DNA of 64,000 nucleotides, from NCBI RefSeq assembly GCF_035917235.1, contig NZ_CP108423.1:4989501-5053500 (forward strand). The letters run 5' to 3'. Position numbers and translations under genes: made by a program. The notes under the pieces were generated by a model. The model had not been told where the DNA came from and searched no databases. It was given only the letters and a program-made list of their open reading frames with translations. This document shows, piece by piece, positions 5,066 to 60,427 of this stretch (position 1 is its first letter; each line of letters begins with the position of its first letter). This DNA comes from Streptomyces sp. NBC_01294. GTDB lineage: Bacteria > Actinomycetota > Actinomycetes > Streptomycetales > Streptomycetaceae.

Positions 5066-5368
5066 GACGGCTCCGTTTCGGATGTCACGGGGTCCTGTTC
5101 CCCTTGTGGTGTCGGGGGCCGCGGGCGGGGAGGGTCGCCGGCGGGGATGGTGCCGGGACCGCGTGAGCCGCGTACAGGACCAAGTCGGATCGGGGTGGAT
5201 CAGGCTTGGGGTTGGTCCGGCGGCAGACAGCTCGTCGTCGTGACACGCATGTGGTCCACATGGCGGCGCTTGACGAGGAGAACGGTCATAGGGTGAGCGT
5301 ACGCCCGTGCGAGCCGTCATCAGTACGGGTGATCCGGCCTGCCCGGACGGCGTTGTCCGAGGACCGGC

Positions 5369-5380
5369 TACGCTGGACCC
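5369..5380 (+). promoter_or_regulatory. prfB -10 element, probable leaderless start
   Basis: TACGCT at 5369-5374 stands 6 nt before the GTG of prfB, so transcription would begin at or next to the start codon. The only purine-rich stretch (GAGGA, about 5359-5363) is about 17 nt from the GTG, too far for a ribosome site. The rest of 5066-5368 holds nothing I can support. Confidence 0.5.
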
Positions 5381-6490
<1,110 letters not shown>

Positions 6491-6528
6491 CGCAGACCAC
6501 ATCACGCGGAGCGCGCGCAGACGCAACA

Positions 6529-6567
6529 CACGAGGGCCCGGACACCGATGGTGTCCGGGCCCTCGTG
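6529..6567. terminator. Bidirectional terminator between prfB and the zinc-ribbon gene
   Basis: A perfect 18-bp stem (CACGAGGGCCCGGACACC and its complement) closes a three-base loop. It lies between prfB and the convergent small membrane gene, serving both. Confidence 0.85.
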
Positions 6568-6612
6568 TTCGAGTGTGATCGGTACGCGGCACGGAGACCG
6601 CGGGCACCGCGA

Positions 6613-6807
6613 CTAGGCGGTCTGCTGGGCCACCAGTACCAGAGCGGCCACGAGGACCACCATGAGCACGATGAGGGCCACGGGGTTCAGGCCGGAGAAG
6701 GGGCCCTCCTGCTGCTGGAGGCGCTCCCGGTTCGCCCGGCACACCGGGCAGCGGCCCTGGCTGACGGGTGCGGCGCAGTTCGCGCACACGAGCCGGTCAT
6801 ATGTCAT
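6613..6807 (-). CDS. Small zinc-ribbon membrane protein
   Basis: 64-residue protein of unknown function. Two CxxC pairs (CANC at about residue 8 and CPVC at about 20) form a likely zinc ribbon. A charged linker follows, then one C-terminal membrane helix (NPVALIVLMVVLVAALVLV). The topology suggests a tail-anchored protein with its metal ribbon in the cytoplasm. It is convergent with prfB. A protein of this form is conserved at this place in Streptomyces as far as I recall, but its role is not known to me. Confidence 0.75.
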   Translation of the reverse strand: MTYDRLVCANCAAPVSQGRCPVCRANRERLQQQEGPFSGLNPVALIVLMVVLVAALVLVAQQTA

Positions 6808-7044
6808 GCGCTCCTCCTCTCGTCCCCTCGGTCGTGTCGATGCCTATAACGGCGTGGGGAACCAGACCGTTCCCCCTACCACTGTGCCAGCTTCGCCGAC
6901 ATTCGGCGCGGCCCGTCCGGGCAATCACGCTCAGGACCCCCCATGACCCCGGGATAAATCGGGCAAGTCCGGATGCCGGGTCCACACCTCGCGCCCGTTC
7001 GCGTATGGTCACGCACACCTACTCCCGGCGACCGTGGTGCACCC

Positions 7045-7734
7045 GTGATCCGATTCGACAGTGTCTCCAAGTCCTACCCGAAGCAGAGCCGTCCCGCACT
7101 CAGAGAAGTCTCCCTCGACATCGCGAAGGGCGAGTTCGTCTTCCTGGTCGGCTCCTCCGGCTCCGGCAAGTCCACGTTCCTGCGCCTCCTGCTGCGCGAG
7201 GAGCGGGCGAGCCACGGCCAGGTGCACGTCCTGGGCAAGGACCTCGCCAAGCTCTCCAACTGGAAGGTCCCGCAGATGCGGCGCCAGTTGGGGACCGTCT
7301 TCCAGGACTTCCGCCTGCTGCCCAACAAGACGGTGGCCGAGAACGTGGCCTTCGCGCAGGAGGTCATCGGCAAGCCGCGGGGCGAGATCCGCAAGGCCGT
7401 CCCGCAGGTCCTCGAACTGGTCGGTCTGGGCGGCAAGGAGGAGCGGATGCCCGGCGAGCTCTCCGGCGGTGAGCAGCAGCGCGTGGCCATCGCCCGCGCC
7501 TTCGTCAACCGCCCCGCCCTGCTGATCGCGGACGAGCCCACCGGCAACCTCGACCCGCAGACCTCCGTCGGGATCATGAAGCTGCTGGACCGGATCAACC
7601 GGACCGGCACCACCGTGATCATGGCGACGCACGATCAGCAGATCGTGGACCAGATGCGCAAGCGCGTCATCGAACTCGAACAGGGCCGACTCGTACGCGA
7701 CCAGTCGCGCGGCGTCTACGGCTACCAGCACTGA
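7045..7734 (+). CDS. ftsE: Cell division ATP-binding protein FtsE
   Basis: 229-residue ABC ATPase that pairs with membrane protein FtsX and couples the divisome to cell-wall hydrolase activation. Walker A (GSSGSGKST), Q-loop ([11 protein letters not shown], typical of FtsE), signature LSGGEQQR, Walker B (LLIADEPTG) and switch His (MATHDQ) are all intact. The GTG at 7045 gives the standard N-terminus ([12 protein letters not shown]). No clear ribosome site precedes it, so it may be leaderless or weakly initiated. The stop lies 17 bp before ftsX, indicating one operon. Confidence 0.96.
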
Positions 7735-7751
7735 AAGGCCCTTGAGACGTC

Positions 7752-8714
7752 ATGCGCGCCCAGTTCGTCATGTCGGAGATCGGCGTCGGCCTCCGTCGCA
7801 ATCTCACCATGACCTTCGCGGTCATCATCTCGGTGGCCCTGTCACTGGCCCTGTTCGGCGGCTCCCTGCTCATGAGCGAGCAGGTGAGCAGGATGAAGGG
7901 CTACTGGTACGACAAGGCCAACATCTCGATCTACCTCTGCAACAAGCAGGACGCCCAGGAGGCCGGTGAGGCCGCGGCCAAGGCCAAGGAATCGGGCGCC
8001 ACGGGGGTCACGGTCTGCGGCAAGGGCGCCGTGACCGACGAGCAGAAGAAGCAGATCGAGTCCGAGCTCAAGCAGATGTCCCTGGTCAAGTCGGTGGCCT
8101 ACGAGTCGGCCGACGAGGCGTACAAGCACTACCAGGAGCAGTACGGCCACACCGCGCTGGCCTCCTCCATCACGCCCGACCAGATGCAGGAGTCCTTCCG
8201 GGTCAAGCTCAAGAACCCGGAGAAGTACAAGGTGGTCACCTCCGCCTTCGTGGGCCGCGACGGCATCCACACCGTCGACGACCAGCGCCAGGCGATCGAC
8301 GACCTCTTCCGGATCCTCAACTACCTCAACATCGCCGCCATCGCGATCATGCTGATCATGCTGATCGTGGCGCTGCTGCTGATCGTCAACACCGTGCGCG
8401 TCTCGGCGTTCAGCCGCAGGCGGGAGACCGGGATCATGCGGCTGGTGGGTGCGTCCAGCTTCTACATCCAGGTCCCCTTCATCATGGAGGCCGCCGTCGC
8501 GGGCCTCATCGGCGCGCTCTTCGCCTGCGCCATGCTCGTCTCCGGGCAGTACTTCGTGATCGACCACGGCGTCGGACTGCGGGACAAGATCCAGCTGATC
8601 GACTTCATGGGCTGGGGATCGGTGCTGGCCAAGCTCCCGTACGTGTTGTTCATCGGCCTCCTGATGCCCTCCATGGCCGCCTTCATCGCCCTGCGCAAGT
8701 ACCTGAAGGTGTGA
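7752..8714 (+). CDS. ftsX: Cell division permease-like protein FtsX
   Basis: 320-residue membrane partner of FtsE. One N-terminal helix (TMTFAVIISVALSLALFGGSLL) is followed by a large extracytoplasmic domain (about residues 45-190) that in other bacteria contacts peptidoglycan hydrolases. Three C-terminal helices with the MacB/FtsX signature (SRRRETGIMRLVGASS) complete it. The external loop has two cysteines (YLCNKQ and VTVCGKG) that could form a disulfide. Start ATG 7752, directly downstream of ftsE. No ATPase motif is present, as expected for the permease partner. Confidence 0.95.
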   Translation: MRAQFVMSEIGVGLRRNLTMTFAVIISVALSLALFGGSLLMSEQVSRMKGYWYDKANISIYLCNKQDAQEAGEAAAKAKESGATGVTVCGKGAVTDEQKKQIESELKQMSLVKSVAYESADEAYKHYQEQYGHTALASSITPDQMQESFRVKLKNPEKYKVVTSAFVGRDGIHTVDDQRQAIDDLFRILNYLNIAAIAIMLIMLIVALLLIVNTVRVSAFSRRRETGIMRLVGASSFYIQVPFIMEAAVAGLIGALFACAMLVSGQYFVIDHGVGLRDKIQLIDFMGWGSVLAKLPYVLFIGLLMPSMAAFIALRKYLKV

Positions 8715-41291: not shown

Positions 41292-41334
41292 GAAGCCGTG
41301 ACCGGAATCGAACCGGCGTAACTCGCTTTGCAGG
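41292..41334. other. attL: 43-bp copy of the tRNA-Cys 3' half
   Basis: Identical to 60355-60397. It covers the T-arm, variable region, 3' anticodon stem and anticodon loop of the tRNA, ending in TTTGCAGG. The lack of a 5' half shows it is the target-site remnant and not a tRNA gene. Confidence 0.93.
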
Positions 41335-41445
41335 TTTGTCCGCGCTGAGAAGAGCTTGGTTCGGGCTCGTTCATGGTCATTCAATCGCGCGCAGCCATGT
41401 TGGGCCTCGGTGTCGATTGAACCGCTCCGGACGTCCACGTACGAC

Positions 41446-41472
41446 GACGAATGAGACGGAAACTGAGACGGT
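41446..41472. other. Left integrase arm-site pair
   Basis: TGAGACGGAAACTGAGACGG (41452-41471) holds two direct TGAGACG motifs 12 bp apart, 117 bp inside attL. Near-identical pairs occur at 43647 and 60271, matching arm-type sites of a tyrosine integrase. Confidence 0.6.
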
Positions 41473-41876: not shown

Positions 41877-43013
41877 ATGACCATCCAGAAGCAGATGGTG
41901 ACTCCCCTGCGCTACGCCAGTAACGGCGCGCGGCCCCTGACGCCGTGGGAACTCACGCAGCTGCGACCCAGCCTAGGAACAGGGGAACGGCCTGCCGAGA
42001 TGGTTGAGCTCGCCAGCCGCCAGCGCATCCATGTCTTCGCCGATGGTGACGGCCCCCCTGAGCCGGAGATCTGCCGCGTGGATGGAGCCGGGGGTAATTT
42101 GTGGCGTGTCGATGTGCCGGTTGGGACCGCAGGCGACGTTGCCTTGCCTGGCAGAACGGCGATCCGCGGCTTTCCGCGAGAGCCGATGTCCGGGACCGAT
42201 CCCGAGGTTGATTTGGCACCCTATCGTCCGGAGTGGCTCGACCTCCTCTATGTGCCACGCGTTCTTCCCAGCCGCAGGAAAAAGCCGATCAGACCACTGG
42301 ACAGGGATACGCTGCAGCCGAAATGGGTCATCGGTCCCGACAACCGGCAGGAACTAAACGAAACAAGCTGGCCTTGGGGCTGCGTGGGTAAAATCTTTAC
42401 CAGCGCAGGAGAGGCAGGCTCAGGGGCACTCGTTGGCGGCCGCGTTCTCCTCACAGCCGGCCATGTGGTGCCATGGGATGACGTCGCAGCAGGCAATTGG
42501 TGGATGCGTTTCGTGCCTGCGTACTACAACGGCAAGTCGCTCCATGGCGCTGGCGTTCAATCCTACGTCTCGGATGTATATGGCTTCGACCCAGACTTGG
42601 CGGGCGGCGCGACAGCGGCCTACGACCGGGCCGTTTGCCGACTGTACGAGCCGCTCGGGGGCCCACTCGGTTACTTCGGATTGGGGCACTACAATCCTGA
42701 TTGGAACGGCCAGCGGTGGTGGACCCACATGGGTTACCCCGGCCAAATGTGGTTCCTGGGGACCAGCTACGAGAGTGGCATCAGTATCAACGCCGCCTAT
42801 AGTGACATCAATGGAGGCGTGGAATGCCGCCATTACGGCGACATCACTCCCGGTAATTCCGGCGGCCCGATGTTCACCTTCTTTGGTGCGGACAATCCCC
42901 GCATCATTGCGGTTCAGTCATCGGACAGTGCGGATGGAGAAATGGTCAACTACGCGGCCGGCGGCCCAGGCCTTGTCGACGACGTGATACGGGCACGCCG
43001 CGACTGGCCCTAA
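41877..43013 (+). CDS. Trypsin-like serine protease (cytoplasmic, element cargo)
   Basis: 378-residue protein. The C-terminal half (about 160-375) is a chymotrypsin/V8-fold protease with His196 (VLLTAGHVV), Asp250 (AAYDRAVCRL) and Ser328 (DITPGNSGGPMF). The first 150 residues form an unassigned domain. There is no signal peptide or lipobox and several cysteines are present, so it should act inside the cell, unlike typical secreted trypsins. A strong GGAGG ribosome site precedes ATG 41877. Third positions are less GC-rich than in core genes, indicating transfer. Intracellular trypsin-like effectors are known in bacterial conflict systems, and a neighbouring TPR-gene relic fits that, but the role is inference. 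Confidence 0.82.
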   Translation: MTIQKQMVTPLRYASNGARPLTPWELTQLRPSLGTGERPAEMVELASRQRIHVFADGDGPPEPEICRVDGAGGNLWRVDVPVGTAGDVALPGRTAIRGFPREPMSGTDPEVDLAPYRPEWLDLLYVPRVLPSRRKKPIRPLDRDTLQPKWVIGPDNRQELNETSWPWGCVGKIFTSAGEAGSGALVGGRVLLTAGHVVPWDDVAAGNWWMRFVPAYYNGKSLHGAGVQSYVSDVYGFDPDLAGGATAAYDRAVCRLYEPLGGPLGYFGLGHYNPDWNGQRWWTHMGYPGQMWFLGTSYESGISINAAYSDINGGVECRHYGDITPGNSGGPMFTFFGADNPRIIAVQSSDSADGEMVNYAAGGPGLVDDVIRARRDWP

Positions 43014-43087: not shown

Positions 43088-43615
<528 letters not shown>

Positions 43616-43695
43616 ACGGGTCTGGACGCCCGCGGACGGAGACGAATGAGACGGAGACTGAGACGGTGGCAGAACTCCGGCACCGTTGGCCGGTG

Positions 43696-44373
43696 CTAGC
43701 TCACAGGCTTCCAGGCTCCTCCGCACCCTTCGGACCTGAACAGTCCGTCAGATGCTCGGATGGTTACGGTGATCTCTCGGGCAGCAGAGGCAAAGTTGTT
43801 GTCGATGATCTCGCCAGAGCGAGTCAGTCGCTCCCAGTAGCAGTTCTTAAGGTCTCCCTTGATTCGGTAAGTACCAGGCTTGATCATGTTCTCGCCAGGC
43901 TTCAGCTCTGAGTTGACCTCATAGCCGCCGCTGCTGAACCAGACCTCGTAGTCCCCTGACGCCGCTTCCTTCAGGGTCTTTGTCCACGTAGGACAGAGCT
44001 TCGGGATCCCCGCCTCCAAGACTGCTCGGCCGTCACCCTCCAGGTATTCCGCCAACCATTGAGGTCGTGAAGCCCCGTCGATGGCGCTGACGGGAAGTGA
44101 TTCACACATGTCTCGCACGAAGGCTGATGCTGAGGGGTAGAGCTCATCGACATCCCAGCCGTTCGTCGCCGCAAGCCTGTCGATCTCCCCCTCAGGGGTC
44201 GGCGGCAACACCGGTGCAGGAGACGGGGTCGGCACGGCGAGGGTGGGGGACGGGGACGGCCCCGCAGTCGCGGAGCGCGCAGCCCTGGGCGAGTCCGCCG
44301 GCTCCCCACAACTGACTAACATCATTCCGGTGCCAACTGCTATCGCGATTCCCGCAGCTATATTGCGTCTCAT
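43696..44373 (-). CDS. Lipoprotein of the cargo operon
   Basis: 225-residue predicted lipoprotein. The lipobox ends MLVSC (Cys22), followed by a Ser/Pro/Thr linker (about 25-65), a helical segment, and a C-terminal beta domain. The last domain (from YEVNSELKPGENMIKPGTY to FRSEGCGGAW, with KNCYWERLTRSGEI) is common in Streptomyces lipoproteins of unknown function, often plasmid- or phage-linked. ATG 44373 has only a weak ribosome site, as if translation depends on the upstream gene 97 bp away. It is the last gene of a four-gene minus-strand run. Confidence 0.75.
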   Translation of the reverse strand: MRRNIAAGIAIAVGTGMMLVSCGEPADSPRAARSATAGPSPSPTLAVPTPSPAPVLPPTPEGEIDRLAATNGWDVDELYPSASAFVRDMCESLPVSAIDGASRPQWLAEYLEGDGRAVLEAGIPKLCPTWTKTLKEAASGDYEVWFSSGGYEVNSELKPGENMIKPGTYRIKGDLKNCYWERLTRSGEIIDNNFASAAREITVTIRASDGLFRSEGCGGAWKPVS

Positions 44374-44470
44374 GAGCGGAGGATCCCACTGGGAACGCTC
44401 AAGCGGAGCGAAATTCCCAAAACCCTGATCCACGATGGCAAGCAGGTTCCAGCCAGGAGGCCGCCCCCTG

Positions 44471-45460
44471 CTACTTGCCGCGGGCGATGTCGATCTGGAG
44501 TTGCACTTCTCGATCGACGTCCAACGCCGCCTTCTCGACAAGCTGCTCGAAGGGTTCGAAGGCGTCTTCGATGGCTGCGTACTCGCGTACGAGGTCGTGC
44601 TTGTCGCTGATGGACTCCAGTGCGGAGATCTCGTTTCGCCACCGCTCCATGTCTGCCTTGGAGTACGGGTACTTTTTCCCGCGGACCTGTTCAAGAGTTG
44701 GGTTCGTGGCGAGGTTCGCCTGCACGAGACGAAGAGCGTCGCCGCGCACGAGTTGCGGGACACCAAGGTTGTCCTCGATGAACGCGAGACTGTCGCTGAT
44801 TTCGTCCAGCCGGGCATCGAGGTACTGGGCCAGAGCGCTGCGGACCTGGGGCAGGTCGAGTCCTACCTCGCGACGTAGCTGCGCGGCGATCTTCTGCGGG
44901 AGGTTCTGCTGCATGAAGCCCGAGCCGCCTCCGGTGAACCGCGATATCTCCGGCCCTAGAGGGGCACTGCCAAAGGCCATGAACCGGCTATATGACTCCA
45001 GCGCGGTACAGGCGGAGTCGAAGTAGATCAAAGTGGCCGGCATGAGGACTTCGCGCCTCAGCTTGTCGCGGTGGTACATCTCGTTGCGGTACTTGTGCAA
45101 CTTCTCCAGGACGGGGCCGAGTGCCGGATCGAGCGTCCCGCGATCGACCAAGAGCGTCACCTTGGCGTCGAAGTTGCGGTCGATGTTCTTCAGTTCCGAC
45201 TTGGGAATGATCCTGGCCTCGATCGAAGGGATCTCTGCCGCTGCTTCTGCGTGCCCGCTGGCGGCCAGCTCTTTGCACGTGGCTAGCATGCCCGTGAGTA
45301 TCTTCTGGTCCCAGAGCGCTGACTGAACCGTCCGGTGAAGAATCAGCTCGGTCACGCTGTCGAGGAGTATGAACGCCAGTCGCAGGTGGGGCACACGCCC
45401 CTTCTCGATCAGGCCCTTGGCCTCTTCGAGCTGCACGACAATCAGTTCCAGCCGCTCCAT
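44471..45460 (-). CDS. HEPN-like protein with RX4H motif
   Basis: 329 residues, not recognised as a named family. The N-terminal 140 residues are helical and end with Arg125-Asn126-x3-His130 in LHKYRNEMYHRDK. This is the RX4-6H pattern, with the typical polar Asn, that marks the ribonuclease site of HEPN domains. The remainder is long charged helices (coiled-coil likely, residues 190-320). The ATG at 45460 has GGAGG 7 nt upstream, the best ribosome site of the operon. HEPN RNases occur in abortive-infection and toxin systems. The motif was found by eye, so family membership needs structural proof. Confidence 0.55.
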   Translation of the reverse strand: MERLELIVVQLEEAKGLIEKGRVPHLRLAFILLDSVTELILHRTVQSALWDQKILTGMLATCKELAASGHAEAAAEIPSIEARIIPKSELKNIDRNFDAKVTLLVDRGTLDPALGPVLEKLHKYRNEMYHRDKLRREVLMPATLIYFDSACTALESYSRFMAFGSAPLGPEISRFTGGGSGFMQQNLPQKIAAQLRREVGLDLPQVRSALAQYLDARLDEISDSLAFIEDNLGVPQLVRGDALRLVQANLATNPTLEQVRGKKYPYSKADMERWRNEISALESISDKHDLVREYAAIEDAFEPFEQLVEKAALDVDREVQLQIDIARGK

Positions 45461-45577
45461 GTCGATCCTCCGTCGCCTTCTGCTCCACATCATCCTGCCT
45501 TGCAGTGGAGGCGGCACGCGATATTGCTTGCGGCCTGAGAGGGCACGGCCTAGCCTCCCGCGCCTATCCAGCCGTGA

Positions 45578-46516
45578 TCACCGTTTTTGGGATGCCATCT
45601 GCGCCGGCGTCGCCGTGCAGCGAAACCCGGTGTCGTCGTCGTGCATCATGTTGTTGGCATCGTTGGGGACAGCTGGGGCTCCCCGAAAAAGTGGGCTTGT
45701 GAAGGCACTGCCGCGGAGTTCGTAGCGACCTGGCGTGGTCGCCGTTGCGAGCCACTCCCACACGTTGCCCACCATGTCGTACACGCCGTACGGCGAGACG
45801 CCGCTGTGGTACCGGGAGACGGACGTCGTGCTCTCCACGCCGGTTTCTCGGACGTTGCATTTGGCCGCTGTCTTTTGATCGCCCCAAGGGAAAGTGCGCC
45901 CGGACGTGCCGCGCGCTGCTTTCTCCCACTGCTCGGCTGTTGGCAGCGACTTCCCCGCCCACGTCGCGTAGGCATCGGCGTCTCGCCAAGTTACGTGCAC
46001 GACGGGGTGGTCGTAGAGGTCACGGGGACATCGGCCGTTCTCCCAGTGCTCGGGCACGGCGTGACGGGTTGCCGCGCAGAACCGCGCGTAGTCGGCGTTG
46101 GTCGTAGGGAACGTGTCTATGAGGAACTCGTCCACCCAGATGGGTTCATCGCGGGGCCCAGACAGGAAGATCCCTTCCGGAACGCATGCCATGAGCCTTC
46201 CATCACCCGGATACTTGACGTAGTCGCCGCTGCTCGTCCCCTCGCCTTCAGGTTCGATGACAGTGTGTGTGGGCACGTCGTCCGCAGCCAGAATGCCGAC
46301 GAAGCGGCCTTGGGTGTCCTTATCGGCCTTGGCGAGCAAAGTGTCCAACGCCGCTTGATTCACCATGCGGATGGACGCTTGTTCGCCGTCCGCCTCCCAC
46401 CGGGAAACGATCCGATCGGATACCCCAAGTTTGTCGGCGAACTCCATGAGACTCATCCGTACGGCTTCGCGTAGCGCCTTAACTTCACGTCCGGTCCATT
46501 TCGTAACGAGCGGCAT
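45578..46516 (-). CDS. XRE helix-turn-helix fused to SUMF1/FGE-type domain
   Basis: 312 residues. Residues about 8-60 are an XRE-type helix-turn-helix (LREAVRMSLMEFADKLGVSDRIVSRWE). Residues about 105-305 form a formylglycine-generating-enzyme/SUMF1 domain (ETGVESTTSV.., PYGVYDMVGNVWEW, GFRC). The catalytic cysteine pair of true FGE (GGS-x-C-H-x3-C) is absent, the segment reading LRGSAFTSPLFRGAP, so it should not make formylglycine. It may use the SUMF1 fold as a binding or ergothioneine/iron-type enzyme domain coupled to DNA binding. It lies upstream of the HEPN-like gene on the same strand. Confidence 0.78.
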   Translation of the reverse strand: MPLVTKWTGREVKALREAVRMSLMEFADKLGVSDRIVSRWEADGEQASIRMVNQAALDTLLAKADKDTQGRFVGILAADDVPTHTVIEPEGEGTSSGDYVKYPGDGRLMACVPEGIFLSGPRDEPIWVDEFLIDTFPTTNADYARFCAATRHAVPEHWENGRCPRDLYDHPVVHVTWRDADAYATWAGKSLPTAEQWEKAARGTSGRTFPWGDQKTAAKCNVRETGVESTTSVSRYHSGVSPYGVYDMVGNVWEWLATATTPGRYELRGSAFTSPLFRGAPAVPNDANNMMHDDDTGFRCTATPAQMASQKR

Positions 46517-46567
46517 GGGCTACCTCTGTCGAGGGCCGCCACCCTCTTGGGCGGCGGCGCACGTCGT

Positions 46568-47353
46568 CTACAGGCGCTCGCCGGGGATTCCGGCGTAGGC
46601 GTCACGCAATGCGGTGAGCGTGGGGTGATCCATGGGGAACTGCACGTCGTCGATTGCGCTGACTGAGCGCACACCGATCGTCGTGTTCGTGGCGAACGCG
46701 GCCGCCATGTTCGGGATGTCCGCGAGGAGTACCGGTGCAGAGATCTGCTTGGGTGCGTTGAGTGCTTGGAGGAGAAGCATCGTCGTGCCAGGGAGTACAG
46801 GGGCGTCCGGCCAGATGACCGTACCGTCCCGGTCGATGAACCCCAGATTCCAGGTTCCGCCCTCGGACACCCTTCCGTTCGGTTCGACGAAAATGGCGTC
46901 ATCGAACCCAGCGATCTGGGCGTCACGGCGTAGGCGCAGCTGAGGATGAAGGCCGATGTGCTTCACCGCCGCGCTGTCGCGGGTGAAGGCGTAGGTCTTG
47001 GCCGTGAGAGGTGGCGGCGGCATGGCACCTGCGGGCCGCAGGTTCACCAGGATGTGCGGGTCTTTCGCGTCGCTGGGACGCCCCATGTCGAGTGCAGGGT
47101 CGAAGATGGTGACGCGCAGGCCGGCGGTCCCGGTAATGCCGCTGGCTGCCTGGCGGATGTAGTTCAGCGTCCGTGCGCGGTCCAACTCGACGCCGAAGAC
47201 GATGCGGCAGTCGCGTACCAGGCGGTCAAGATGGAGCGACAGACCCCTGATGGTGCCGTCCTCCATCCGCATGGAGGTGAAGTGCCCGTAGTTCGTGAGC
47301 GCGAGGCCCTGGAGGTCGTCGAGGGTGACGGGGTTTCCGTTGAGTTCGGCCAT
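46568..47353 (-). CDS. Class IV aminotransferase
   Basis: 261-residue PLP enzyme of fold type IV (branched-chain/D-amino-acid aminotransferase or aminodeoxychorismate lyase group). The catalytic Lys131 lies in AAVKHIGLHPQLRLRR, followed by the diagnostic DDAIFVEPNGRVSEGGTWNLGF. The ATG at 47353 has GGGGGG close upstream. It is the first gene of the four-gene minus-strand run (gaps 51, 117 and 97 bp). A possible inverted repeat (AAGAGTG/CACTCTT, 47437-47475) lies in its promoter region. Such enzymes on an AICE are unusual; the substrate is unknown. Confidence 0.85.
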   Translation of the reverse strand: MAELNGNPVTLDDLQGLALTNYGHFTSMRMEDGTIRGLSLHLDRLVRDCRIVFGVELDRARTLNYIRQAASGITGTAGLRVTIFDPALDMGRPSDAKDPHILVNLRPAGAMPPPPLTAKTYAFTRDSAAVKHIGLHPQLRLRRDAQIAGFDDAIFVEPNGRVSEGGTWNLGFIDRDGTVIWPDAPVLPGTTMLLLQALNAPKQISAPVLLADIPNMAAAFATNTTIGVRSVSAIDDVQFPMDHPTLTALRDAYAGIPGERL

Positions 47354-47507
47354 GCCCCCCAGTCTTGCAGCAGGCTGGACTGCGCCAACACCCCGTAAGG
47401 GAGTGGAAGTTCGGATTAGTTCGGTGCGGGCGCTGCAAGAGTGCGTACACATAACGCCTCCCCCGCGACACTCTTAATGCATGACGACATGCGCACCGCG
47501 AGAGACG

Positions 47508-47891
47508 CTAGGGGCCGGACTGCCCCTCAGCGGACCTCACGACTTCCTCCAGCTGACCGACTCGTTTGATGAGGCCGGCCAGTTCGGTCGAGACGCGCGT
47601 GACCTCGGCCTGCAAGTCGGCCAGACTCTGGGCAGCCTCGCGGGGTCCCTGCTCGCCAGGGGTGGTTTCGCGGACGTAGGTACCGCTCCCCGAGACACCC
47701 TCCACCAGCCCCTCATCCCGCAGCTGGGTGTATGCGTTCTGGACTGTCATGAGGGAAACGCCGAGCTTCTTGGCGTAGGCCCGTCCTCCGGGGAGTCGGT
47801 CCCCAGGGCCGAACGTCCCCGCGGCGATCTCGCCCCTGATCCTGGCGGCGATCTCACGGGCGTTGGGCTTCCTCTTCGGCTCTGAATCCAT
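47508..47891 (-). CDS. GntR-family regulator (KorSA-like)
   Basis: 127-residue protein with an N-terminal GntR winged helix (REIAARIRGEIAAGTFGPGDRLPG, then SLMTVQNAYTQLRDEGLVEGVSGSGTYV). A short helical tail without an effector domain follows. Short GntR proteins of this kind (KorSA in pSAM2) repress AICE transfer and replication genes. Three GACCTAGGTC-type operators lie directly upstream (47907-47997), so it is probably autoregulated and controls the divergent conjugation genes. It could also read through into the aminotransferase gene 154 bp downstream. Confidence 0.85.
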   Translation of the reverse strand: MDSEPKRKPNAREIAARIRGEIAAGTFGPGDRLPGGRAYAKKLGVSLMTVQNAYTQLRDEGLVEGVSGSGTYVRETTPGEQGPREAAQSLADLQAEVTRVSTELAGLIKRVGQLEEVVRSAEGQSGP

Positions 47892-48744: not shown

Positions 48745-49065
48745 ATGCGTTCGTACATCGGTAACCACCAGATCGTGAACCCGGCTGAGTTCGAAGAGCT
48801 GGCGCTCGGCTTCGATGAACTGCCCCTCGGGCTCGACCGTGACCTGTTCCGCGGCCCGCTGACCCCGGAGACGCTCCAGGAGCGGGCCGCCCGTGAGGCG
48901 GTAGCCCGCGAGGTCATCGCCGAGCTGGCCGCCCTGGGGGAGGGTGGCGACGAGATCGCCGCGTGGGACGCGCTCTACGCCGACGCGCTGACTCGCACGG
49001 TGCCCTTCCTGCGGGGCGCTGCCCGCGACGCCGGCCGTTCCGCCCGGATGGGGGAAGCGGCATGA
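48745..49065 (+). CDS. Small AICE protein, first gene of the transfer operon
   Basis: 106 residues, acidic and mostly helical (FEELALGFDELPLGLDRDLF, then TLQERAAREAVAREVIAELAAL). No known domain is recognised. AGGAGA lies upstream of ATG 48745. Its stop overlaps the GGDEF gene start (ATGA), so the two are translationally coupled. Similar small proteins begin AICE operons, but I cannot assign a role. Confidence 0.65.
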   Translation: MRSYIGNHQIVNPAEFEELALGFDELPLGLDRDLFRGPLTPETLQERAAREAVAREVIAELAALGEGGDEIAAWDALYADALTRTVPFLRGAARDAGRSARMGEAA

Positions 49066-49709
49066 GCCACACCATGACGGCTCTGGCCGCAGCGCTTCCG
49101 CTCTTGTCGGGCTGGTCCGTACACAGTCTGTGGATGCGGCGCCGGATTGAGGCCGCTCGCCGCGATCCCCTGTCTGGCCTGCTGACTCGGGATGGCTTTA
49201 CGGAGCGTGCCGAGCGTTGGCTGCGATTCAGGCCGAGGGCGGTCTGCCTGATCGACCTCAACAAGTTCAAGCAGATCAACGACACCTACGGCCATGCCGC
49301 CGGCGACGCGGTCATCCGTGCTGCTGGCGAGCGGCTGAGTGAGTGGGCCCTCAACAACTCCGCCGTCGTGGGCCGCTTGGGCGGCGACGAGTTCGCAGCC
49401 GTCGCCCCTGCCTACAGCCAGGGTCAGCTCACCGAGACTCTCGACAGCCTGCTCGCCGCACTAGAGCAGCCGGTAGTGGCGGGGGGCCACGTGCTGACGG
49501 TCAGCGCTTCGATCGGCGCGGCCGTCTTCAACCCTCGTGCGGATCAGGCAGGCCTCTCCGAGTTGCTGCGGCTGGCGGATGAGCAGATGTACAAGGCCAA
49601 GCAGCGCGGCGGAGGCTGGCGCATCGCTCACCGGCTGACGGTCCCTGCGGCGGGCACGGTCAACGGCCGCCGTGACGGCCGCCGCGGCACCAGCGGGGAG
49701 GCGGCGTGA
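49062..49709 (+). CDS. GGDEF-domain diguanylate cyclase
   Basis: 215 residues. After a short hydrophobic N-terminus (MTALAAALPLLSGWSVHSLW), a complete GGDEF domain covers about 35-195. Metal and substrate motifs (CLIDLNKFKQINDTYGHAAGD) and the intact RLGGDEF signature (about residue 105) are present, so it should make cyclic di-GMP. No RxxD inhibitory site precedes the signature and no sensor domain is present. Cyclic di-GMP represses sporulation through BldD in Streptomyces, so an element-borne cyclase could influence when its host differentiates. It overlaps both neighbouring genes in the transfer operon. Confidence 0.88.
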   Translation: MSHTMTALAAALPLLSGWSVHSLWMRRRIEAARRDPLSGLLTRDGFTERAERWLRFRPRAVCLIDLNKFKQINDTYGHAAGDAVIRAAGERLSEWALNNSAVVGRLGGDEFAAVAPAYSQGQLTETLDSLLAALEQPVVAGGHVLTVSASIGAAVFNPRADQAGLSELLRLADEQMYKAKQRGGGWRIAHRLTVPAAGTVNGRRDGRRGTSGEAA

Positions 49710-51268: not shown

Positions 51269-53419
51269 GTGTCCGATGTCTACGTCACCGGCCAGAACGA
51301 AGAGCCCGAGCGTCCCGGCGCCGAGGTCTTCGACATCACCACCAAACGTCCCACCAACCCCGCCCCCGCCCCGCCGGCAGACCCTGACGACGACGAGGAC
51401 GAGTCGCCGCCCCTCCGGCCCGTCGACTCGCCCGACCTGCCGGCCCCGGGCGTCACCACCTACAAGCGGCTCCCGATCATTCCGACCTGGCTTAAGTCGA
51501 AGCCGGGGTTCGTCTCCACCACCCAGCGCGCCGCGAGCAACGCGTTCTACTCGACCGTCTTCCACGGCATTCGCACCCCCTGGTACGCGCTGCAGCTCGG
51601 GCTGCACGCCCCGCGCGGCGTGGCCCGTCTGGTGCGTGACACCAACCGCTGGGTGTGGGACGCCGAAGCGGCCCCCCTCCGCGCCTACGAGGTCTACAAG
51701 GAGAACACTGCCGAATACCTGAAGCTGTCGCGGCAGCGCGACAGCCGGGTACGCCTGCGGACGCTGGTCACCACAGTGGCGCTGATCTTCGGCGCTGGCT
51801 TCGCGCTGACCATGTACGTCATGGCCCCCGGCTGGCTCGCGGTCCTGGCCTCGGCCGCAGTCCTCACCGCCGGATTCTGGGGCGCACCGCAGGACCAGCC
51901 CGTGATCGGTCCCGCCGTACTCAAGACCGAGATCCAGAAGCTGACCGGGGCGATCGTGCTCCGGGCTCTGGACAACATCGGCAACGCGAAGCTGTCGGCC
52001 GCCATCAAGAAGGGCGGCGACATGAACGGCTTGAGGTTCACCTCGGAGATCACCCGGGACGGGCCCGGCTACCGCGCCGACCTTGACCTTCCCTGGGGTG
52101 TCACCCCCGAGGACATCATGGAGGCCCGCAAGCCGCTCGCCTCCGGCCTGCGTCGCAAGGTCGGCTCCGTGTGGCCGTCGTCCGACCCTGAGGAGCACGA
52201 GGGCCGACTGATCCTGTGGGTGGGTGACAAGCCCATGAACGAGACCAAGAAGCCCGCGTGGCCGCTGCTGAAGTCGGGCAGCGTGGACCTGTTCAAGCCG
52301 GTCGTCTTCGGCAACGACCAGCGCATGGGCGACGTCGCTGTGACCCTGATGTTCGCCAGTGTGGTCGTCGGCTCCATCCCGCGCATGGGCAAGACGTTCC
52401 TGATGCGCCTGTTCCTGCTCATCGCCGCACTCGACCCGCGCGCCCAGCTGTACGCGTTCGACTTCAAGGGCACCGGCGACTTCGGGGCGCTGGAGCCGGT
52501 CTGCCACCGCTACCGGGCCGGGGACGACGACGAGGACATCCTCTACGTCCTCGAATCGCTGCGGGAGCTGCGCCAGGAACTGCGCCGCAGGGCCAAGGTC
52601 ATCAAGTCTCTGCCGCGTTCGCGGTGCCCGGAGTCGAAGGTGACCCCGGACCTGGCCAACGACAAGAGCCTGGGCCTGCACCCGATCGTGGCCGCGTTCG
52701 ATGAGTGCCAAGTTCCCTTCGAGCACGACAAGTACGGTGCCGAAATCGAAGAGATCTGCACTGACCTCGGCAAGCGCGGCCCGGCCCTCGGCATGGTCAC
52801 CCTGTTCGGGACGCAGCGCCCCGACGCGAAGTCGCTGCCCACCGGCATCTCCGCGAACGCGGTGCTGCGGTTCTGCCTGAAGGTCATGGGCCAGCCCGCC
52901 AACGACATGGTGCTGGGCACCTCGATGTACAAGGCCGGATACCGGGCCACGATGTTCTCCCGCACCGACCGCGGCATCTGTTGGATGGCCGGTGAAGGAG
53001 ACGACCCCCGCATCGTCGCCTCCGCGTTCGTGGACGCGCTCGGCGCCGAACAAGTCGTCGTCCGGGCCCGCCGGATGCGCGAGGAGTACGGCAACGTCAC
53101 CGGCCACGCCATCGGCCAGGAACCCGAAAGCGGCGAAGCCTCCTTCGACCTCCTCGCCGACATCCTCAAGGTCGTGCCGGCCGACGAAGAGAAGGTCTGG
53201 AACGAGAAGGTCGCCGCCCGCCTCGCCGCCCTGCGCCCCGAGATCTACAGCGGCTGGAAGGCCGAAACGGTCACCACCAACCTCAAGCCGCACGGCATCA
53301 CCGCCCAGGACGTATGGGGCTCCACCACCGCCGGCAAGGGCACCACCCGACGCGGCGTCGCCCGCGCCGACATCACCACCGCCATCACTCACCGTGACGG
53401 GAAGCGGTCTGCGAACTGA
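51269..53419 (+). CDS. FtsK/SpoIIIE-type conjugative DNA translocase (TraB/TraSA-like)
   Basis: 716 residues. A disordered acidic N-terminus is followed by two membrane helices (about 165-204). The motor domain has Walker A near 366-378 (GSIPRMGKTF), Walker B near 470 (IVAAFDEC) and the family region RGPALGMVTLFGTQRPD. The last 120 residues contain a helix-rich, winged-helix-like part that in related TraB proteins reads clt repeats. The start is GTG 51269 with GAGGGAG upstream. It is the key transfer protein, moving double-stranded DNA between mycelia. The repeat block just downstream is a natural clt candidate. Confidence 0.9.
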   Translation: MSDVYVTGQNEEPERPGAEVFDITTKRPTNPAPAPPADPDDDEDESPPLRPVDSPDLPAPGVTTYKRLPIIPTWLKSKPGFVSTTQRAASNAFYSTVFHGIRTPWYALQLGLHAPRGVARLVRDTNRWVWDAEAAPLRAYEVYKENTAEYLKLSRQRDSRVRLRTLVTTVALIFGAGFALTMYVMAPGWLAVLASAAVLTAGFWGAPQDQPVIGPAVLKTEIQKLTGAIVLRALDNIGNAKLSAAIKKGGDMNGLRFTSEITRDGPGYRADLDLPWGVTPEDIMEARKPLASGLRRKVGSVWPSSDPEEHEGRLILWVGDKPMNETKKPAWPLLKSGSVDLFKPVVFGNDQRMGDVAVTLMFASVVVGSIPRMGKTFLMRLFLLIAALDPRAQLYAFDFKGTGDFGALEPVCHRYRAGDDDEDILYVLESLRELRQELRRRAKVIKSLPRSRCPESKVTPDLANDKSLGLHPIVAAFDECQVPFEHDKYGAEIEEICTDLGKRGPALGMVTLFGTQRPDAKSLPTGISANAVLRFCLKVMGQPANDMVLGTSMYKAGYRATMFSRTDRGICWMAGEGDDPRIVASAFVDALGAEQVVVRARRMREEYGNVTGHAIGQEPESGEASFDLLADILKVVPADEEKVWNEKVAARLAALRPEIYSGWKAETVTTNLKPHGITAQDVWGSTTAGKGTTRRGVARADITTAITHRDGKRSAN

Positions 53420-55995: not shown

Positions 55996-56922
55996 ATGAC
56001 ACCAACCCCCAACCCCGCGCTGCTGCGCGCCGCCCTGGCCGCCGCGGAACGCGGCTGGCCCGTCTTCCCGCTCCGCCCCGGAGACAAGCGGCCCGCCGGA
56101 CACCCCGAACGCAACTGCCCCCGCACCGGCCGCTGCACGGACGGCCACCGCACCCCCGAACAGCGCGCCACCCTTGCTGCCGAGCAGATCAACGCCTGCT
56201 GGCAGGCGGCCCCTTACAACGTCGGCATCGCCACCGGCCCCGCCGGACTCCTGGTGGTGGATCTCGACATCCCGAAGGACGACGACGGACCCGCCCCCGC
56301 AGACTGGGCGGGGGCGACCGATGGCCTGGACGTGTTCGCCATGATCTGCGAGCGGGCCGGTGAGAGGCTGCCGACCGAGACGTTCACGGTGCGCACCCGC
56401 CGCGGCGGACAGCACCTGTACTTCACCGCCCCCGCCGAAAAGCAGCTACGTGGGAGCGCAGGACGCCTGGGGTGGAAGGTCGACACGCGCGCCTGGGGCG
56501 GGTACGTGGTCGCGGCCAGCAGCACCGTCGGCACCGGCTCGTACGACATCATTCACGACACGCCCCCGGCCCCCCTCCCCACGTGGCTCTGTGACCTCCT
56601 CACCACGCCACCCGCACCCGACCCGGTCCCCGTGGCCGTGCTCCGCGCCCGCATCGGGAAGGCAGACCGGTACGCGACAGCCGCCCTGAACGGCGAGGTC
56701 GCCAAGGTCGCGGCTGCTGTCACCGGAGCACAGAACACGACGCTCTACAACGCGGCGTACGCCCTCGGCCGCCTCATCGCCGTGGGGACCCTGACGGAGT
56801 CGGAGGTCACCGACGCGCTCACCGACGCCGCCCCGGAGGGGCTCGCGCCTTCCCGCATCGCGGCCAGCATCCGCGACGGCATCCACCGCAGTACCCGCAA
56901 CGCCATGGGAGGGGCGGCATGA
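55996..56922 (+). CDS. Bifunctional primase/polymerase (RepPP type)
   Basis: 308 residues. The prim-pol domain spans about 5-200: the N-terminal LAAAERGWPVFPLRPGDKRP is family-typical, the metal pair sits in LLVVDLDIPKDD (about residue 88), and the nucleotide His in RRGGQHLYF (about 137). A helical C-terminal part (GAQNTTLYNAAYALGRLI) follows. Start ATG 55996, stop overlapping the DUF3987 gene start. Primase-polymerases of this type define one of the three replication classes of AICEs, so the element probably replicates after excision without a rolling-circle Rep. Confidence 0.9.
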   Translation: MTPTPNPALLRAALAAAERGWPVFPLRPGDKRPAGHPERNCPRTGRCTDGHRTPEQRATLAAEQINACWQAAPYNVGIATGPAGLLVVDLDIPKDDDGPAPADWAGATDGLDVFAMICERAGERLPTETFTVRTRRGGQHLYFTAPAEKQLRGSAGRLGWKVDTRAWGGYVVAASSTVGTGSYDIIHDTPPAPLPTWLCDLLTTPPAPDPVPVAVLRARIGKADRYATAALNGEVAKVAAAVTGAQNTTLYNAAYALGRLIAVGTLTESEVTDALTDAAPEGLAPSRIAASIRDGIHRSTRNAMGGAA

Positions 56923-58475: not shown

Positions 58476-58729
58476 CCACAGAAACCACAGAATCACAGAA
58501 ATAGCCCTACCCGGCCCCTGGCCTGCGCGAATGTCCTCAAGGAGGGCTCCCGGGCGGCTGCCACAGAAACCCGCAGAAGAGCCACACAAATACGAGCCCA
58601 CCCCGGCCCGCCTATTTCTGTGGGACTTCCCGCCCTTTCTGTGGCAGCCCACCCACCGGTCCCCACCCCGCCGTTCCCGCAGGTCAGCGGCCCCACCCCG
58701 GGTTTCTGTGTATTTCGTGGTTTCTGTGG
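58476..58729. other. CCACAGAAA iteron array, candidate replication origin
   Basis: CCACAGAAA-type repeats lie at 58476, 58485, 58494 and 58561. The same motif inverted (TTTCTGTGG) lies at 58614, 58636, 58703 and 58721. The two arms face each other about a centre near 58600, between the replication genes and xis. Confidence 0.65.
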
Positions 58730-58750
58730 CGGCCCGCCAAGGAGCGAGCC

Positions 58751-58987
58751 ATGCACGACACCCATGTCGCCGCGTCCCACGCGGCAGATTCAACGCTGGT
58801 GCTGCTGACCGTCGAGGAAGCCGCCCGGCGACTTTCCATCGGCCGGACCACGTGCTTTCACCTCATCGGCTCCGGACAGCTGGAGTCCGTGCCCATCGGC
58901 AGGCTTCGCCGCGTGCCGGCGGAAGCCGTGAACGACTTCCTCGCACGGCTCCGCGAAGCGCACCGCCCTACCTCCACCGCTGCCTGA
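58751..58987 (+). CDS. xis: Excisionase (Xis)
   Basis: 78-residue DNA-binding protein with a MerR/excisionase-type winged helix (LLTVEEAARRLSIGRTTCFHLIGSGQLESVPIGRLRRVP). This is the standard recombination directionality factor of actinomycete elements. GGAGCG precedes ATG 58751, and int starts 11 bp after its stop. It would bend DNA at the att arms to favour excision. Confidence 0.88.
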   Translation: MHDTHVAASHAADSTLVLLTVEEAARRLSIGRTTCFHLIGSGQLESVPIGRLRRVPAEAVNDFLARLREAHRPTSTAA

Positions 58988-58998
58988 AGGGGCTGCCC

Positions 58999-60273
58999 AT
59001 GACAGAGAACAAGCGGACCCGCCAGCCCAACGGCCGCAGCTCCATCTATCTCGGGAAGGACGGAAAGTGGCACGGCCGCGTCACGGTCGGCGTGCGCGAC
59101 GACGGCTCACCTGACCGGCGCCACGTCGAGCGCAAGACCCGTGCCGAAGTCACGACCGCCGTACGGAAACTGGAGAAGGAGCGAGAGGCTAAGGCGGTGC
59201 GGAAGCCGGGCAAGGCCATGACGGTCAAGGCCTGGCTGACGCACTGGATCGAGAACGTCGCCCCGCTCGGGGTCAACGACAACACGATGGTCGGGTACGG
59301 AGTCGCCGTGCGAAAGCACCTCATCCCCGGCCTGGGAGCTCACCGTCTCGACAGGCTCACGCCCGAGCACATCGAGATCTTCTACGCGAAGATGCAGGCC
59401 AACGGCAGCAAGCCCGCGACTGCCCATCAGGTGCACCGCACCTTCCGCACCGCCCTCAATGAGGCCGTACGCCGCGGGCATCTCGGCAAGAACCCGGTCC
59501 AGTTGGCCAAGGCGCCGAAGACGGGCGACTACGAGGCGGAGCCCTACACCGTTAAAGAGGTACAGCGGCTGCTGGAGGCCTCTGGTCGGCAGCGGAATTC
59601 TGCGCGCTGGGCCGTCGCGCTCGCCCTCGGGCTGCGTCAGGGGGAGGTGCTGGCCCTGAAGTGGGATGACGTAGATCTTGAGGGTGGGTTCCTTGTGGTC
59701 CGCCGTAGTCGCCACCGCCCGCAGTACGCGCACGGGTGCAGCGCCCCCTGCGGCCGGAAGGCCGGGTACTGCCCGGAGAAGCGGCGCAGCAACCCGGAGA
59801 CCTCCGTCACCAAGTCGCGTGCCGGTCGCCGCGCGGTCGGTCTCCCGGAACAGCTCGTTGACCTACTGCGAGCCCACCGCGAGGCCCAGGACGCGGAGCG
59901 ACAGGCAGTTGGGAAGCGCTGGGTAGAAGGGGAGTGGGTGTTCCCCGACGAGCACGGGCGCAGCCCCTCGCACCGAAGGGACTGGGCGGAGTGGAAGGCC
60001 CTGCTCGTGGAAGCGAAGGTTCGTGACGGACGGCTCCACGACGCACGGCACACTGCGGCCACGGTGCTGCTCATCCTCGGAGTGCCCGAGCGGGCCGTGA
60101 TGGGCCTCATGGGATGGTCGACCACGGCCATGGCCGCGCGGTATCAGCACATGGTCGACGCAGTGCGGACCGACGTGGCGAGGCAGGTCGACGGACTGAT
60201 CTGGAAGACCGAGACGGACCGGCCGGATGAGGACGACGACGGTGCGGCCGGCGTGCTCGTACCGGCCAACTGA
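58999..60273 (+). CDS. int: Tyrosine site-specific integrase
   Basis: 424-residue tyrosine recombinase. The N-terminal AP2-like arm-binding domain covers about 10-60 (SSIYLGKDGKWHGRVTVG), the core-binding SAM-like domain about 75-165. The catalytic domain has Arg213 (LGLRQGEVLALKW), His347-x2-Arg350 (HDARH) and nucleophile Tyr382 (AARYQHM), all present. A cysteine-rich insertion (HGCSAPCGRKAGYC) near 250 is common in AICE integrases. ATG 58999 is chosen with GAAGGGG upstream. It lies beside its att site in the tRNA. Confidence 0.94.
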   Translation: MTENKRTRQPNGRSSIYLGKDGKWHGRVTVGVRDDGSPDRRHVERKTRAEVTTAVRKLEKEREAKAVRKPGKAMTVKAWLTHWIENVAPLGVNDNTMVGYGVAVRKHLIPGLGAHRLDRLTPEHIEIFYAKMQANGSKPATAHQVHRTFRTALNEAVRRGHLGKNPVQLAKAPKTGDYEAEPYTVKEVQRLLEASGRQRNSARWAVALALGLRQGEVLALKWDDVDLEGGFLVVRRSRHRPQYAHGCSAPCGRKAGYCPEKRRSNPETSVTKSRAGRRAVGLPEQLVDLLRAHREAQDAERQAVGKRWVEGEWVFPDEHGRSPSHRRDWAEWKALLVEAKVRDGRLHDARHTAATVLLILGVPERAVMGLMGWSTTAMAARYQHMVDAVRTDVARQVDGLIWKTETDRPDEDDDGAAGVLVPAN

Positions 60274-60354: not shown

Positions 60355-60397
60355 GAAGCCGTGACCGGAATCGAACCGGCGTAACTCGCTTTGCAGG
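60355..60397. other. attR: 43-bp repeat within the intact tRNA-Cys
   Basis: Identical to 41292-41334, ending in the anticodon loop (TTTGCAGG). The element supplies the tRNA 3' half here, so the gene stays functional. Confidence 0.93.
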
Positions 60398-60427
60398 CGA
60401 GTCCCTCAACCACTCGGGCACACGGCT
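60356..60427 (-). tRNA. tRNA-Cys(GCA)
   Basis: Read on the minus strand. The acceptor AGCCGTG pairs perfectly with CACGGCT. A three-pair D stem, anticodon stem CTCGC/GCGAG with loop CTGCAAA (anticodon GCA) and T-arm GCCGG-TTCGATT-CCGGT follow. The discriminator is U73, the identity base of tRNA-Cys. CCA is not encoded. It hosts the AICE in its 3' half. Confidence 0.92.

Follow-up and report, generated by a model that had tools for sequence, protein, structure and literature searches.

Four genes stand close together on the minus strand at the distal end of a 19.1-kb actinomycete integrative and conjugative element (AICE) in the 8.5-Mb genome of Streptomyces sp. NBC_01294, and they raise the question of whether they act as one unit. 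They encode a class IV aminotransferase (AT4), a fusion of an XRE helix-turn-helix (HTH) domain to an FGE-sulfatase domain (XRE-SUMF1), a HEPN-family protein with an RX4H motif and a lipoprotein. We analysed the 64,000-nucleotide stretch that contains them (contig NZ_CP108423.1, positions 4,989,501 to 5,053,500; hereafter the window). An earlier note on this DNA had named the four products and given the gaps between the open reading frames (ORFs) as 97, 117 and 51 bp; the gaps are exact, and domain matches together with the motif bear out the identities. We explain the block, with moderate confidence, as stacked cargo: a mobile, self-regulated AT4/XRE-SUMF1 operon, a solitary HEPN RNase-like gene and an unlinked lipoprotein gene.

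The earlier note had proposed that the four genes form one operon, with the shape of a defence or addiction unit. The common strand, the short gaps, a similar GC content at third codon positions (GC3) and a genuine RX4H motif all favour such a unit, and we rejected it after neighbourhood surveys of HEPN, plasmid, IMG/VR and pair loci. We collected 45 loci with homologues of the HEPN gene, each with up to 8 kb of flank, and searched them by tblastn at 1e-4. AT4, XRE-SUMF1 and the lipoprotein were found at none of the 45, 12 of which are under 12 kb because contigs end there, nor at four plasmid and two IMG/VR loci with the HEPN gene. Among all fetched loci, only the stretches of the window itself hold the HEPN gene together with a long XRE-SUMF1 match, and matches to the lipoprotein gene are confined to them as well. 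In one genome (G163) the HEPN gene and the AT4/XRE-SUMF1 pair are both present, on different contigs. Since the HEPN loci lack the partners and this genome holds them unlinked, the four-gene unit has no co-occurrence support; the HEPN leader is, in addition, common to relatives at other loci. A single four-gene operon for defence or addiction is, in our judgement, very improbable, and the lipoprotein gene is linked to neither the pair nor the HEPN gene. The lower GC3 that the earlier note had seen in the four genes holds as a tendency (0.70–0.82, against 0.79–0.92 in nine plus-strand genes at 48.9–60.3 kb), but the ranges overlap, with values of 0.79 for the integrase and 0.80 for the GGDEF gene falling within that of the cargo.

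Only AT4 with XRE-SUMF1 recurs elsewhere. In 36 of the 38 other loci examined, which come from Streptomyces, Nocardia and further genera of the class and from chromosomes, AICEs and plasmids, XRE-SUMF1 has AT4 or a remnant of it on its upstream side. The pair is a conserved mobile two-gene unit, and the DNA-binding sensor with an accessory enzyme that the earlier note had picked out survives in this form, with its own candidate operator. XRE-SUMF1 is present in 26 of 295 genomes of a genus sample (threshold 1e-40) and in 10 of 296 of a class sample (threshold 1e-50), three genomes being common to both. Within the genus sample, AT4 or a remnant stands upstream on the same strand in 24 of the 25 other genomes with an XRE-SUMF1 match; the remaining one, G152, holds no more than a fragment of XRE-SUMF1. 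Only the end of AT4 remains in G009, and the pair is broken in G240 and G198. G104 holds a more distant AT4 (44%), whose end lies 0.76 kb ahead of a partial match to XRE-SUMF1. The class sample has AT4 in six of seven further genomes, the seventh (G897) carrying a fragment without AT4. Twelve plasmid records matched XRE-SUMF1 with at least 80% coverage, and AT4 accompanied it in all five of their loci that were read. The XRE-SUMF1 profile found 37 loci in IMG/VR, all partial FGE-domain matches except one near-full-length match, L128, which was the locus examined for AT4 and has it. In a phage collection, all matches were confined to part of the FGE domain and covered less than 80% of the query. 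Seven of the nine phylum-sample genomes with an AT4 match carry a more distant AT4 (33–51% over the aligned part) without XRE-SUMF1; an alignment search for XRE-SUMF1 in this sample, which scored five candidates per genome, gave 2 of 396 among the matches listed and was not used for prevalence. No third gene was conserved beside the pair across clades, as judged from ORF calls that were crude and often fell on antisense frames. The pair was not met among the matches listed from the open-access literature searched, nor was it found by a term search of the main texts of AICE papers.

The region upstream of AT4 carries two recurring patterns. A strict direct repeat, GAA[CG]T-N5/6-GAA[CG]T, is present in 16 of 34 such regions, whereas first-order Markov shuffles averaged 0.04 and never exceeded 1. 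It is absent from seven loci in which AT4 is unlinked to XRE-SUMF1. Elsewhere its frequency is that of background, with 2 sites in the 208 kb of control DNA and 7 in the 666 kb of HEPN loci; four non-operator places in pair loci have it as well. With the regions anchored by hand, the last repeat copy starts 47–69 bp before the ATG in 31 of 34; one clade has changed half-sites in both copies (TGACTT/TGACGT). The other pattern, a -10-like A-N-[AGC]-CT box, lies 5–10 nt before the ATG in 30 of 34 regions (shuffle mean 1.5, maximum 6), and this position suggests leaderless AT4 transcripts. Genome-wide, the strict CGAACT repeat has three sites, two besides the operator, against two for a reversed control; at a count so near the control, the XRE-SUMF1 switch may control only itself. 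At a further locus (L203, G000:C2:7529-7544, on a second contig), three GAAC-type repeats with a 10-bp period lie shortly before a possible start codon and are perhaps the site of a related regulator.

AT4 belongs to the class IV aminotransferases (PF01063, 6.6e-33; NCBIfam PRK09266, 301.7 bits against a cut-off of 202), having the fold type IV domain with its lysine and glutamate. By analogy, K131 and E164 would be the catalytic positions. Lys131, Glu164, Asn169, Arg44 and Thr191 are kept in all 34 pair-linked copies, for which reason the pyridoxal phosphate (PLP) enzyme looks competent. Its nearest sequence matches in the PDB are aminodeoxychorismate lyase and branched-chain aminotransferases, and PADLOC gave no match. 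At L114 (2966-6036), the gene of a fused pabAB-type aminodeoxychorismate synthase and that of a distant AT4, which has no XRE-SUMF1, are arranged divergently, a clue to AT4 chemistry.

XRE-SUMF1 combines HTH_3 with an FGE-sulfatase match (1.9e-35), and its best PDB sequence match is SUMF2 (1.8e-22). The copper site of FGE needs a cysteine pair in the C-terminal motif. The window protein has cysteines only at 111, 147, 163, 220 and 300, and no conserved pair five residues apart was present in 23 aligned rows (the window protein and 22 of at least 120 matches). The full-length model of the sulfoxide synthase EgtB was matched at 67.4 bits, well below its cut-off of 360. In PADLOC the protein had HTH-level matches only.

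We propose that the XRE domain binds the phased repeats and controls its own operon. Since the repeats lie upstream of the presumed -35 position, where activators typically sit, XRE-SUMF1 would be an activator. The FGE-like domain, lacking the cysteine pair, may sense a small-molecule ligand, which would make the fusion a one-component switch. AT4 would be the output, making or consuming the sensed molecule (a related amine or keto acid) and so closing a feedback loop. The HEPN gene would be a separate transcription unit whose product most likely cleaves RNA in a conflict setting. A more far-reaching proposal, which we think quite unlikely, is that the pair represents an undescribed class of mobile actinobacterial conflict or signalling module. 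On recognising a ligand that stems from an invasion or a neighbour, an FGE-like (C-type-lectin-fold) sensor bound to DNA would turn on a PLP enzyme, and the enzyme's product, or the depletion it causes, would affect the cell; the place next to the pair would take interchangeable cargo such as a HEPN RNase.

The HEPN protein is, by its motif, a genuine member of the family: R125, N126 and H130 are invariant in all 37 aligned relatives (of 61 homologue matches), giving RX4-6H with a polar residue after the arginine. By fold its membership is plausible; no Pfam family scored above cut-off, and a Foldseek search of the PDB with its model returned nothing significant. Thirty-one of the 37 relatives end in RGK, 25 of these in ARGK, which suggests a functional C terminus. 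The closest relatives are from Streptomyces. The gene is rare, being found in 2 of 295 genomes of the genus sample (the source genome included), and had no match in the phage collection. No cluster of neighbouring ORFs recurred in more than three of the 45 loci, except an integrase-like cluster in nine. A HEPN/MNT toxin-antitoxin system would have an MNT nucleotidyltransferase antitoxin next to the HEPN gene; none of the three cargo genes that accompany it in the window encodes one, and no search with MNT's own model was made at the 45 loci. The leader listed in Table 1 indicates that the gene probably has its own promoter. By analogy, a conflict RNase of the abortive-infection type is the most likely role. 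Ten large neighbours were chosen for closer inspection: type III restriction-modification is clear at L060 and PDC-S06 at L053, the rest being weak or without a match.

Several observations weigh against parts of this explanation. The strict repeat is missing from 18 of the 34 regions; on visual inspection most of these seemed to hold drifted half-sites, and in L098, L101 and L128 the repeat was not placed. Both upstream patterns were defined after the sequences had been viewed and the 34 regions are related, so that the shuffle figures (means of 0.04 and 1.5) exaggerate the contrast. A generic sigma-70 promoter scan found no site upstream of AT4, and the -10-like box is present at the unlinked AT4 of L114, hence not specific to the pair. 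The structure model of XRE-SUMF1 was poor (mean pLDDT 68.6), too poor for a structure search, and its sensor role thus rests on sequence and analogy. For the HEPN gene, the short loci in the survey count on the same side, as does the origin of the shared leader in close relatives only (69–82% identity), since descent alone may explain part of it. Given the gap sizes, there may be read-through from the pair into the HEPN gene. The conflict role is an analogy, and the contrast in PADLOC families among HEPN neighbours (120 families for 150 proteins, against 57 families for 126 control proteins) is weak and confounded. That scan took 150 of 167 proteins of at least 90 aa, 17 being dropped as over 1000 aa or past the 150th, and all 126 proteins from 13 arbitrary control stretches; it counts families and not proteins.

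Two other readings keep the pair together. It could be an ordinary metabolic cargo operon, for example one for an aminodeoxychorismate lyase or a D-amino-acid transaminase, under a local regulator and without broader significance. We regard this as possible, if doubtful: the nearest PDB sequence matches agree with it, as does the AT4 relative (45%) divergent from a pabAB-type gene in one genome, but no annotated pab gene lies near the pair in five plasmid loci and, to our knowledge, an FGE-like regulator with a repeated operator is unusual for metabolic cargo operons. Alternatively, the pair might be a defence or addiction module, which overlaps with our own explanation; XRE-SUMF1 would then act as a regulator that senses invasion or loss, with AT4 as a metabolic effector depleting or poisoning an amine pool. 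A two-gene, mobile, patchy make-up (26 of 295 genomes), the XRE domain, the varied contexts and the existence of broken copies would suit it, and PMC10907252 and PMC7159879 propose that C-type-lectin folds of the FGE type serve conflict systems as sensors or effectors. We nevertheless consider it unlikely, given that PADLOC recognises no more than the HTH of the regulator and nothing of AT4, that the crude ORF calls gave no third gene conserved across clades, that the Wadjet JetA gene beside one pair lies outside the attachment (att) site, and that matches in the phage collection were confined to parts of the FGE domain.

With its recurring candidate operator, the pair occurs on plasmids, AICEs and chromosomes in several genera of actinobacteria. 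Should its FGE-like domain prove to be a sensor, this would define a small-molecule-responsive XRE family whose fold is known chiefly from enzymes and from targets of diversity-generating retroelements. The block also illustrates how genes on a mobile element that pass for a compact operon can be an accumulation of unrelated cargo.

Table 1 Features of the element and its cargo (positions in the window)
Feature	Position	Strand	Remark
Distal att site	41292..41334		43-bp exact repeat of tRNA-Cys 3' end
Lipoprotein, Rv1352/Rv1906c domain	43696..44373	minus	unlinked cargo
Stand-alone HEPN-family protein	44471..45460	minus	329 aa
RX4H motif, R125-N126-x3-H130	45071..45088	minus	coordinates by arithmetic
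HEPN gene leader	45461..45577	minus	stretch GATGATGTGGAGCAG also present in closest relatives (other loci); may hold its own promoter
XRE-SUMF1 fusion	45578..46516	minus	HTH residues 12-51, FGE-sulfatase match 127-261, without FGE cysteine pair
Class IV aminotransferase AT4, PRK09266 subfamily	46568..47353	minus	K131, E164 conserved
AAGACT -10-like box	47361..47366	minus	7 nt before AT4 start codon; probable leaderless promoter
GAACT-N5-GAACT phased direct repeat	47408..47422	minus	candidate operator of XRE domain; only strict match in 64-kb window
GntR-family regulator	47508..47891	minus	upstream of AT4/XRE-SUMF1 pair in window and in L077-L081
FtsK-like TraB transfer protein	51269..53419	plus	weak Pfam match
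Prim-Pol replication protein	55996..56922	plus	match 1.7e-43
Tyrosine integrase	58531..60273	plus	adjacent to tRNA att repeat, as in AICEs
tRNA-Cys-side att site	60355..60397		43-bp exact repeat
tRNA-Cys	60355-60427	minus	

The element itself is an AICE, as the earlier note had placed the genes and as the exact 43-bp att repeat, taken from the 3' end of tRNA-Cys, bears out. The identification draws on this repeat together with the integrase, the Prim-Pol replication protein, the GntR regulator and a TraB candidate whose FtsK_SpoIIIE match (6.8e-4; 19.6 bits against a Pfam cut-off of 24) makes that assignment weak by itself. GntR regulators of AICEs include KorSA and SCO3932, according to PMC8584621, and AICE cargo is described as diverse in PMC9513070. 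A GGDEF protein is encoded within the element at 48963-49709; on an S. rochei plasmid (L110) a 46% relative is found close to the HEPN gene. At the distal end, att-side sequence stands in two diverged copies (41324-41472 and 43519-43667), 2195 bp apart, around a trypsin-like gene at 41877-43013. The copies are 75% identical between 41324-41384 and 43519-43579 and 84% between 41418-41472 and 43613-43667. With these repeats on both sides, the trypsin-like stretch (41.3–43.5 kb) is a probable accreted remnant of an older element end.

GntR, AT4 and XRE-SUMF1 follow in the same order in the window and in five further elements (L077-L081), and form the terminal module of these related AICEs, followed by differing cargo or none. 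Exact tRNA repeats bound four of the six, from tRNA-Cys in the window, tRNA-Ser in G218 (58 bp) and G069 (54 bp) and tRNA-Thr in G290 (44 bp); none was found for the elements of G193 and G040. An att copy lies 163 bp from XRE-SUMF1 in G069, which has a further 41-bp copy 2.5 kb beyond, and 143 bp from it in G290. In the other two, XRE-SUMF1 is followed by two low-GC3 genes (G218) or by the HEPN gene, the lipoprotein gene and the trypsin stretch (the window). With the att copy so close in two elements and differing cargo in two, the pair is terminal and the HEPN gene looks like later cargo.

A Wadjet-type JetA gene (L081, G290, 6171-7898; PADLOC 1.2e-169), adjoined by a large ORF, lies directly outside the att site of one pair-carrying element. 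We had considered it as a sign of a defence slot after XRE-SUMF1 and rejected it, as the att repeat puts JetA outside the element. IetA/IetS matches lie about 3 kb beyond XRE-SUMF1 in G193 (L077), where the element ends were not found. Four proteins scanned downstream of XRE-SUMF1 in G218 (L078) and G040 (L080) matched no family. A defence-cargo slot beside the pair is unproven. Elsewhere, a TIR/NB-ARC/TPR protein (L096, G240, 5273-7969) adjoins a broken pair.

Compared with known systems, the element resembles AICEs of the pSAM2 type in its tRNA att sites, tyrosine integrase, TraB/FtsK-like protein, Prim-Pol and GntR regulator. The HEPN protein differs from the HEPN RNases SO_3166, Csm6 and Csx1 in that it is stand-alone, has no recurring partner and carries an extra helical C-terminal half. 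XRE-SUMF1 is like the FGE/SUMF1 enzymes and SUMF2 in its FGE-sulfatase match and best PDB sequence match, but differs from the enzymes in being fused to an XRE HTH and in lacking the copper-binding cysteine pair. The XRE-DUF397 pair Scr1/Scr2 of Streptomyces, proposed as a toxin-antitoxin system, proved to be a positive regulator of antibiotic production, according to PMC6262351. AT4/XRE-SUMF1 is likewise a two-gene XRE module. No DUF397 match was found in the seven proteins scanned, and the pair described here differs from Scr1/Scr2 in having a PLP aminotransferase (PF01063) as partner and an FGE-like domain on the regulator.

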